A stretch of 36,304 nucleotides of DNA, taken from an uncultured Parvularculaceae bacterium (GTDB lineage Bacteria; Pseudomonadota; Alphaproteobacteria; Caulobacterales; Parvularculaceae). Positions within the stretch are counted from its first letter, which is position 1; each line of letters starts with the position of its first letter. Positions 16,116 through 17,715 of this stretch are shown one piece after another. The DNA is taken from positions 1 through 36,304 of the forward strand of contig CAJXLJ010000028.1 of assembly GCA_913055785.1 (NCBI GenBank), in the 5' to 3' direction. A program made the translations under genes and the position numbers. Under the pieces are notes generated by a model. It saw only the letters and a list, made by a program, of their open reading frames with translations. It was not told the DNA's origin and searched no databases.

Positions 16116-16613
16116 TCAATCTTCGACCGATTCTGCGATGCCGCCGGTTTGTTTTGTCCGCCAGTCGTCAAGGCGCCCGGCGAGCGCATCATCGTGAACG
16201 GCGAGAATGGCTGCAGCGAGCAGCCCGGCGTTTGCAGCGCCCGCATCGCCGATAGCGACCGTCGCCACCGGCACGCCTGCCGGCATCTGGACAATGGAAA
16301 GCAGGCTGTCGAGCCCTTTGAGGGCTTTTGACTGCACCGGCACGCCAATGACCGGCAGCGGGGTCATTGAGGCCGCCATGCCCGGCAGATGCGCAGCGCC
16401 GCCGGCGCCTGCGATGATGGCCTTGAGCCCCCGCGATTTCGCTGTCCTGGCGTATTCGTAAAGCCGGTCCGGGGTGCGATGCGCCGAGACGATCCGGGTT
16501 TCATAAGGAACGCCGAGGGCGTCGAGATTATCCGCCGCGCGTTTCAGCGTTGGCCAGTCCGAGCGCGAGCCCATGATGATTCCAACTAGCGGTGTCGGCT
16601 GGTCTCCGGCCAT
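16116..16613 (-). CDS. purE: N5-carboxyaminoimidazole ribonucleotide mutase
   Basis: 165 aa. It converts N5-CAIR to CAIR in de novo purine synthesis. [17 protein letters not shown] at the N-terminus, [18 protein letters not shown] with the catalytic SAHR loop, and [14 protein letters not shown] are diagnostic for class I PurE. The start at 16613 follows GGAGGA by about 6 nt. Together with purK it forms a two-gene operon. The 5' side holds a long structured leader or separate RNA (16669-16840), so expression may be linked to that element. Confidence 0.96.
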
Positions 16614-16668
16614 GGCTGTCCTCCGCCCGGTACGGGGCCTCAAAGCGAAGCGGGGCTTATAGCAGGCC

Positions 16669-16840
16669 CAGTCTCTTCGGCAAGAACGAGGCGATTGGGG
16701 AGGGAACGGCCAATGCCGTCAGCGAAATGAGGAGACGCCAGTCTAACAGACGGGGGGCGCGATGACGGACGCCTCCTCACACCGGACGCGGGAGCTGGTC
16801 GCCTCAGAAGGGGACTTATTTGCGACCTGTTCCGCAAGGA
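16669..16840 (-). ncRNA. Structured RNA candidate, 6S-like or purE leader
   Basis: I folded this by eye on the minus strand. Outer pairing: UUGCGGAAC (16829-16837) with a bulged GUUCUUGCCGAA (16676-16687). Next stem: perfect GAGGCGA (16799-16805) with UCGCCUC (16688-16694). Long apical stem: UGAGGAGGCGUC (16768-16779) with GGCGUCUCCUCA (16728-16739), 12 bp including two G-U pairs that would be mismatches on the plus strand, so the minus strand is favoured. A small hairpin ACGGC-AUUG-GCCGU (16706-16719) sits on the 3' side between the two stems. A total of about 170 nt, an internal bubble with a 3'-side mini-hairpin, and UCGCAA...AGUCCCCU near the 5' end all recall 6S RNA. A purE-specific leader is the alternative. 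Confidence 0.42.
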
Positions 16841-16842
16841 TG

Positions 16843-16871
16843 AACATGAGACTGAGTGCGGCTCGTCTCAA
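16843..16871 (-). promoter_or_regulatory. Possible promoter for the purE-upstream RNA
   Basis: Minus strand TTGAGA (16866-16871, five of six matches to the -35 consensus), a 17-nt spacer, then CATGTT (16843-16848, a weak -10). It would start transcription near 16836, at the 5' base of the proposed structured RNA. No other promoter-like pair stood out nearer purE. Confidence 0.3.
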
Positions 16872-17007
16872 GGGTGAAGCGGCGAACCGAGCAGGGGCCG
16901 CGCTGAAACGAATGTAGCAGGCGCCGGTTTAGAGGCGCTCGCGCTTCTGTTAGACATGTTGATCTCGTCTCGCGTTGCGTGGGACGAATCGGCATGAAAG
17001 CACGTAT

Positions 17008-17715
17008 ATGAAAGTCGGCGACCCGCCCAAAACCTATCGCATCGCAAAGATCGAGAAAAAGGCCGCTCAAAAGGGAGCTGCGCCTTCCGTCGTGCAAGCG
17101 GCGGAGGATAGTATTGAAGTGTTGGGCGTGCCGGGGGCGGAACTGACGCCACGCGTCAGAAGCGCGTTGATCTCGCTGCTGGAAGAGGTGAACTCGCTAA
17201 GGCGGGAGCTTGACGAGGCGCGCGAACGGCTGGGCGAGCTGGAACAACTCGCCGACCGCGATCCGTTACTCAACATTCTCAACCGGCGCGCATTCGCCCG
17301 GGAGCTAAACCGCGCGCTCGCGATGATCGATCGCTATGACGCTCGCGCCAGCCTGGTCTTTGTCGACCTTAACGACTTGAAGAAGATCAACGACGCGAAA
17401 GGGCACGGCGCCGGCGACGCCGCGCTCGATCATGTCGCCCGCATGTTGCAGGATAATGTGCGGCAAACAGATTCTGTCGGCCGGCTGGGAGGCGATGAAT
17501 TCGGCGTGCTGTTATTGCAGACCGATCAGGCGCAGGCGGAGAAAAAAGCCGCGGAACTCGCCGTCAAAGTCGACAGCGCGCCGGTTGAATGGAAAGGCGA
17601 GTCTTTTGCCGCCCGCATCTCCTGGGGGGCCGTAGAGATCAAGAAAGGCTTTTCAGCGGAGCAAGCGATGGAGCACGCCGACAGCGCCATGTATCAGTCA
17701 AAACAGAAAAAATAG
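17008..17715 (+). CDS. GGDEF-domain diguanylate cyclase
   Basis: 235 aa, soluble. The N-terminal 85 residues have no known sensor domain: a basic start, then a predicted coiled coil (about 55-82, LLEEVNSLRRELDEARERLGE), which may drive dimerisation. The GGDEF domain runs from DRDPLLNILNRRAF (83-96) through FVDLNDLKKINDAKGHGAGD to the intact active site GGDEF at 161-165. RQTD at 152-155 is placed five residues before it, which is the RxxD product-inhibition I-site. It should make c-di-GMP from GTP with feedback control. ATG 17008 is chosen over 16975 because the earlier part looks non-coding; the ribosome-binding site is weak either way. Convergent with the DUF465 gene (4 bp gap). Confidence 0.88.
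   Translation: MKVGDPPKTYRIAKIEKKAAQKGAAPSVVQAAEDSIEVLGVPGAELTPRVRSALISLLEEVNSLRRELDEARERLGELEQLADRDPLLNILNRRAFARELNRALAMIDRYDARASLVFVDLNDLKKINDAKGHGAGDAALDHVARMLQDNVRQTDSVGRLGGDEFGVLLLQTDQAQAEKKAAELAVKVDSAPVEWKGESFAARISWGAVEIKKGFSAEQAMEHADSAMYQSKQKK

Follow-up and report, generated by a model that had tools for sequence, protein, structure and literature searches.

In Caulobacter, the small RNA (sRNA) GsrN (ccna_R0081) pairs with the katG leader through a C-rich loop in its 5′ part; in the passages of the report that concern us here (PMC5869019), this loop is the best-conserved part of the molecule, and the gene has a sigma-T promoter and usually adjoins stress-response genes. PmaR of Agrobacterium, as portrayed in part of another report (PMC6234868), has a long stem whose loop contains C-rich regions, and it affects several mRNAs. 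Excerpts from the same report, for AbcR1, and from one on the alphaR8 siblings SisA-D (PMC12559287) describe further alphaproteobacterial sRNAs, these with anti-Shine-Dalgarno regions. Here we describe what is apparently a real and undescribed sRNA family encoded beside purE, which fits an alphaproteobacterial pattern of sRNAs that share C-rich loops without detectable kinship. Like GsrN, it is small and exposes C-rich sequence in a loop; unlike GsrN, it has two such loops in the predicted fold, another genomic place, another promoter and no Rfam match. PmaR, which we liken to it by description, is a single spoon-like stem-loop in the portion of its source used here, whereas the new RNA has two hairpins. 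The new RNA is separated from AbcR1 and SisA-D by the absence of any Rfam match at E up to 1, and their motifs presumably differ from its loops, CCCUUC and CCCCCGUC.

On balance, we think it probable that the purE-side RNA is an independent, new, clade-restricted sRNA that pairs in trans with mRNAs through its two C-rich loops. The RNA is a defined, testable gene in a little-studied bacterial group (our literature search found no paper combining Parvularcula and sRNA), and its identification as an sRNA forestalls an otherwise plausible 6S annotation at purE. The evolutionary evidence is unusually clean, in that entire stems have been exchanged and the two C-rich loops are unchanged.

The window, that is, the whole 36,304-nt stretch of DNA analysed, comes from an uncultured Parvularculaceae bacterium. 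The putative sRNA gene, of about 118 nt (16718..16835, minus strand), was recognized as a conserved block with covariation, matched by our model at 16718-16838; its 5′ end was placed from the promoter and its 3′ end is approximate. It lies between purE (AIR carboxylase; 16116..16613, minus strand; PF00731, E 3.4e-65), which is followed on the same strand by purK (PF02222, PF17769), and a divergent GGDEF-domain gene (17008..17715, plus strand, start codon inferred; PF00990, E 3.5e-37). The position of the RNA between these genes is constant: the GGDEF gene adjoins it in all 27 same-genus loci, and purE lies downstream on the same strand in 25 of the 27, two of which have an insert between. Rfam gave no family match in the whole window at gathering score, and none at 16500-17100 at E up to 1.

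A promoter-like TTGAGA-17-CATGTT had been pointed out in the first-pass annotation; it is present in the sequence, and its hexamers are conserved. The -35-like TTGAGA (16866..16871, minus strand) is represented by [CG]TTG at the same place in all 27 same-genus upstreams, and the -10-like CATGTT (16843..16848, minus strand), 17 nt after it, by CANNTT at that spacing in 25 of the 27 loci. CATGTT is weak against the sigma-70 consensus, and a consensus promoter scan lists no promoter here. We set the look of this element, CTTG..CCATNTT, by eye beside the groES upstream, considering a heat-shock RpoH promoter. Farther upstream is a box (16879..16907, minus strand) formed by a direct repeat, TTCAGCGC (16907-16900) and TTCGCCGC (16886-16879), 21 bp from start to start. 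The repeat (TTCRNCGC) is found in 32 of 37 loci when the search pattern is intentionally relaxed (one mismatch allowed, no shuffled control), and is a possible activator site.

Read on the minus strand, the conserved element has two hairpins joined by a linker: a 5′ one that carries the loop GUCCCCUUCU and a long 3′ one whose loop reads CGCGCCCCC(C)GUCU. Helix P1 (16788..16835), in which GCGG at 16835-16832 pairs with CCGC at 16791-16788, closes the 5′ hairpin domain; it is nearly invariant and so offers scant covariation, which makes it the least supported helix. Within it, P2 (16797..16827) joins GGTCGC at 16827-16822 to GCGACC at 16802-16797, with two-sided changes in 5 of 7 pairs. Loop 1, GUCCCCUUCU (16806..16815), retains CCCTTC in 34 of the 37 members, which comprise the 27 same-genus loci plus, from sister genera, seven of g6, one of g5 and two of g3. 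The linker CUCCCGCGUCCGGU (16781..16794) is near invariant in the window's own genus only, and its word CCCGCGTCCG occurs in 27 of the 37 (one of the ten misses, L024, belongs to the own genus). The long 3′ hairpin P3 (16728..16779) pairs 16779-16768 with 16739-16728 and, further in, GUC at 16766-16764 with GAC at 16743-16741, and 12 of its 14 pairs change on both sides among 24 diverse rows. Loop 2, CGCGCCCCCCGUCU (16748..16761), carries the word CCCCCGTC in every one of the 37 members. Indeed, the P3 stem of g3 has few letters in common with that of the window, yet its loop word CCCCCGTC is identical. In the g3 form (L090, L091) a further hairpin is predicted in the region that separates the two conserved ones. 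A coding gene was rejected: in the 34 members with both loop words, the spacing between the words takes all three frames.

The case for a structured RNA rests on covariation; fold energy alone is modest. The 203-nt stretch folded with z = -1.90 (9 of 200 shuffles equally good) and the 119-nt core with z = -2.47 (3 of 200), while the seven sister-genus members ranged from -2.2 to -5.2. In the 27-locus, same-genus alignment, made without structure, P1, P2 and P3 are paired in 98.8% of cells, and two-sided change affects 34 cells and 7 pairs, against 10.1 and 3.9 in shuffled controls and 0-11 cells and 0-3 pairs when the structure is slid. Covariation across the purE upstream regions of relatives, a check that the first-pass annotation had suggested, proved strong. 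When the 24 diverse rows (own genus, g6, g5 and g3) were aligned to the model, pairing held in 97.5% of cells and two-sided change was seen in 20 of the 25 pairs, compared with 7.3 in shuffles, none of 500 of which reached as high; the covariation score was 0.422, versus 0.199 shuffled and 0.04-0.10 slid. We also counted two-sided events between standard pairs along a tree built from the GGDEF proteins encoded next to the RNA. The model-fitted alignment gave 43 events (17 in P2 and 25 in P3), against 0-5 for slid structures and a mean of 4.6 (maximum 18 in 200) when the same columns were randomly re-paired. A fitted alignment favours the structure it was fitted to, so we took the count again with the same 24 loci aligned without structure. 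This still gave 25 events (P2 7, P3 17); slid structures gave 2-8, and random re-pairing gave 4.1 on average, with a maximum of 12 in 200. In this alignment 92.3% of cells are paired, P2 reaching only 81%, versus 38-55% for slid structures.

The same data bear on the strand. Of the 667 paired cells in the 27-locus alignment, 96 hold G-U, which would be A-C mismatches on the plus strand, and the plus strand folds more weakly (z = -1.29). The G-U pairs rule out the plus strand as a candidate, and the minus-strand assignment made earlier holds.

The first-pass annotation had proposed an unannotated structured RNA upstream of purE, and this much is supported by conservation and covariation in relatives. 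Its single rod of about 170 nt with a bubble does not survive the comparison, the conserved fold being two separate hairpins in about 118 nt. Only one of the stems claimed for the rod is conserved, namely the 12-bp apical stem with two G-U pairs (16768-16779 with 16728-16739), which is present and recurs in relatives. A 7-bp stem (16799-16805 with 16688-16694) is indeed complementary in the letters, but its 3′ half, TCGCCTC, follows the core in 1 of 27 loci, the window itself; this outer stem would reach across the purE promoter and compete with P2, the GGTCGC/GCGACC hairpin that covaries. The mini-hairpin at 16706-16719 can likewise be read in the letters, but the stretch is largely gap in the other 26 loci.

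The rod had been taken to be 6S RNA, and the purE-side RNA is almost certainly not that. The two are of about the same size class, and this general size, the strand and the nearness to purE are all that favours the identification. When the locus was scored with the Rfam 6S model, as had been proposed, the window held no RF00013 match at gathering score, and no Rfam family matched in 16500-17100 at E up to 1. The whole genome, searched at E up to 10, gave a single RF00013 match, at C23:38362-38517 (L001), with 55.4 bits and over the cut-off. After this one comes a gene for 5-formyltetrahydrofolate cyclo-ligase (PF01812), which does not adjoin the purE-side RNA. The gene for this enzyme, fau/ygfA, is the usual neighbour of ssrS/6S in proteobacteria, and the genome's 6S RNA thus lies elsewhere, in its usual company. 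The covarying fold also argues against 6S RNA, with two hairpins side by side in place of a closing stem, a central bubble and an apical stem. The suggested placing of alphaproteobacterial 6S genes near purE/purK fits cyanobacteria, where 6Sa/Yfr7 lies downstream of purK (PMC1242208).

With purE downstream on the same strand at 25 of the 27 same-genus loci (two with an insert), and likewise in sister genera, the RNA is placed as a cis-acting leader (riboswitch or attenuator) of purE would be; a purE leader had been the earlier alternative to 6S RNA. Several observations make it improbable. First, purE has a separate promoter in the window (16656..16683, minus strand), with TTGCCG at 16683-16678, a 16-nt spacer and TATAAG at 16661-16656. 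Within 230 nt after the RNA, a purE promoter of the form TTG..TATAA is present in 18 of the 27 same-genus loci and one of the form TTG..TGTAT in 5 more, the remaining four being a contig end (L009) and the inserts of L010, L013 and L025. Second, same-strand purE is not directly downstream in all members. At four loci other DNA, twice with a convergent open reading frame (ORF), follows the RNA in the place of purE, and the RNA is kept. In L010 (G014) a convergent 206-aa ORF without a Pfam match is followed by a squalene-hopene cyclase gene, and no purE was found in this 86% complete assembly; in L059 (G061) the RNA and purE are separated by a convergent methyltransferase-like ORF; in L013/L078 (G024) a PepSY_TM-like ORF and in L025 (G008) a 129-aa ORF without a Pfam match come after the RNA. 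Since the RNA is retained where purE is displaced, it is not, or not only, a purE leader. Third, no terminator-like hairpin was found. Nor is a U-rich terminator visible after the RNA, which leaves its 3′ end approximate. On comparison of related sequences, then, the RNA is conserved, folded, assigned to the minus strand and separable from purE.

We next consider how far the RNA extends among relatives. Counting the own genome, 26 of the 28 genomes of the genus hold a match to the stretch. The two without the RNA, 84 and 83% complete, gave no purE match either. Across 60 genomes, the same search matched 28, of which the two beyond the genus (G033 and G040) were weak, with E about 0.008. A model, R1, built on the 27 same-genus loci from 26 genomes, found the RNA in 34 of 62 family genomes, namely 26 of 28 in the own genus, 7 of 9 in g6 and the single genome of g5; weak second matches appeared in G061 and G009 (E 0.012 and 0.025). 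Two g6 genomes gave no match. One is G064, whose purE is truncated by the start of a contig; in the other, G062 (L096, 1380-1600), purE comes directly after a DUF465 gene, with the GGDEF gene and the RNA absent between; this is an apparent loss of the RNA, perhaps together with the GGDEF gene as one block. In g3, a diverged copy was present at both loci read (L090 and L091; 26.0 and 24.6 bits with filters off); these copies were missed by the stricter family scan, in which a third g3 genome gave no match. A separate observation concerns G006 (84% complete), which holds two differing copies of the GGDEF-RNA-purE region (L005 and L030) and is perhaps a mixed bin.

In genera g7 (5 genomes), g4 (2) and g2 (4), purE is present and the model gave no match in the stretch before it; L088 has a model match of 10.3 bits elsewhere. 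The 700 nt before purE held no C-rich loop word in 10 of these 11 genomes, the exception being a lone CGCCCCC at -594 in L086. Among 200 genomes of the order, 26 matched, 23 of them in the family, and the other three (E 0.04-0.06) were at chance level. For 385 genomes of the class (277 genera), searched with model R2 at E up to 0.02 under stricter filters, only the own genome was among the matches listed. With no convincing match to the RNA outside Parvularculaceae in these searches, the RNA appears to be restricted to some genera of this one alphaproteobacterial family.

One of the three order matches outside the family was itself an RF01529 RNA. At L064 1541-1645, in G099 from another family of the order, Rfam reports RF01529 (CC3552) with 98.3 bits, beside phyR and with a hairpin bearing a C-run loop; to judge from its place by phyR, this RNA is probably of the GsrN kind. 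L064 is not a member of the new RNA family, and its fold energy is left out of the sister-genus range given above. Eight loci of the new RNA, checked against Rfam at E up to 1, gave no match. That our model weakly matched it (24.8 bits, E 0.044), and that both RNAs have C-rich loops, would be expected if the purE-side RNA were a diverged relative of GsrN/RF01529. We regard such kinship as very unlikely: with 200 genomes scanned, a per-genome E of 0.044 is no better than chance, RF01529 exceeded its cut-off in none of the 62 family genomes, its sub-threshold matches (best E 0.03) lay away from the purE loci, and GGAAC-N15-17-[CG]GTT, the sigma-T/EcfG promoter, was found in none of the 37 upstreams.

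What remains is how the RNA may act. According to the reading we prefer, an RNA of about 118 nt would be transcribed from its own promoter on the minus strand, probably assisted by an activator bound at the upstream repeat. Two stem-loops would then present the C-rich loops GUCCCCUUCU and CGCGCCCCCGUCU, the stems serving as scaffolds and the loops as the active part. Most likely the loops would base-pair in trans with several mRNAs, at G-rich stretches that include Shine-Dalgarno regions, and this pairing would alter the translation or stability of those mRNAs, as with the C-rich loops of GsrN and PmaR. Fixed C-rich loops combined with freely changing stems are what an RNA working through its loops would show, and by analogy a loop-based mechanism is the most likely one. 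Against this reading count the poor -10 hexamer, the lack of a visible U-run terminator and the failure of our searches to find a conserved target. The loss in one genome (G062) and the loop-2 excess described below also count against it but were weighed as offset by the structure-free covariation.

Alternatively, the C-rich loops might dock or sequester a protein, with mRNA pairing playing no part. Loop letters almost fixed across four genera would suit such a protein-binding RNA, as would the lack of a conserved mRNA target in our loop-complement searches. We hold this to be rather unlikely, since the comparable C-rich loops of GsrN and PmaR pair with mRNAs, according to the parts of the reports cited above, and no result here suggests a protein partner.

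Candidate partners for pairing in trans were sought as exact loop complements before ATG, with the reversed pattern as control. For loop 1, the 28 same-genus genomes gave 34 matches versus 7 for the control. Thirteen of the 34 were at rplD, one was the RNA's own antisense strand (L135), and four (L124, L131, L138 and L139) appear to be repeats within the coding frame of a single other gene. The sequence AGAAGGGGAC, to which loop 1 (GUCCCCUUCU) is exactly complementary, immediately precedes the start of rplD at the rplC/rplD overlap; at L141 1449-1467 (G000:C61), for instance, the end of rplC and the start of rplD meet at AGAAGGGGACGAATAAATG, which holds this complement. We checked the rplC/rplD junction in 54 rows from 53 genomes. 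In the own genus (g1), the 10-mer is present in 13 of 24 rows and the 9-mer in 17 of 24. Outside it, the 9-mer occurs in the one g5 row, in none of 8 g6 rows (7 from RNA-carrying genomes), in none of 3 g3 rows, and in none of the 18 rows from genera in which no RNA was found. Since g6 lacks the site although its RNA has an identical loop, rplD counts as no more than a lead, and because the end of rplC codes through the site, coding and ribosome-binding needs may explain its conservation. Nor was there any excess of loop-1 complements outside the genus: 8 genomes with the RNA gave 5 matches, one of them the RNA's own antisense strand, and 10 genomes lacking the RNA gave 11. On this sequence match, rplD is thus a weak lead as a target of loop 1, and the idea that the RNA is a clade-specific brake on ribosome production, acting through loop 1 at rplD, is a long shot. 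The E. coli L4 protein, the product of rplD, is a regulator of the S10 operon. If the idea were true, the brake would couple an activator-driven signal to L4 (S10 operon) synthesis, and in g6 the RNA, its loop unaltered, would have turned to other targets.

For loop 2, the complement GACGGGGGCG before ATG gave 69 matches in the 28 same-genus genomes, versus 8 for the reversed control, and 8 of the 69 were the RNA's own antisense strand. No recurrent gene start emerged: among the 30 loci read, no two starts that open a frame of more than 40 aa are alike. In the same search, GACGGGGGCGATCCTGACTATG recurs five times in four genomes.
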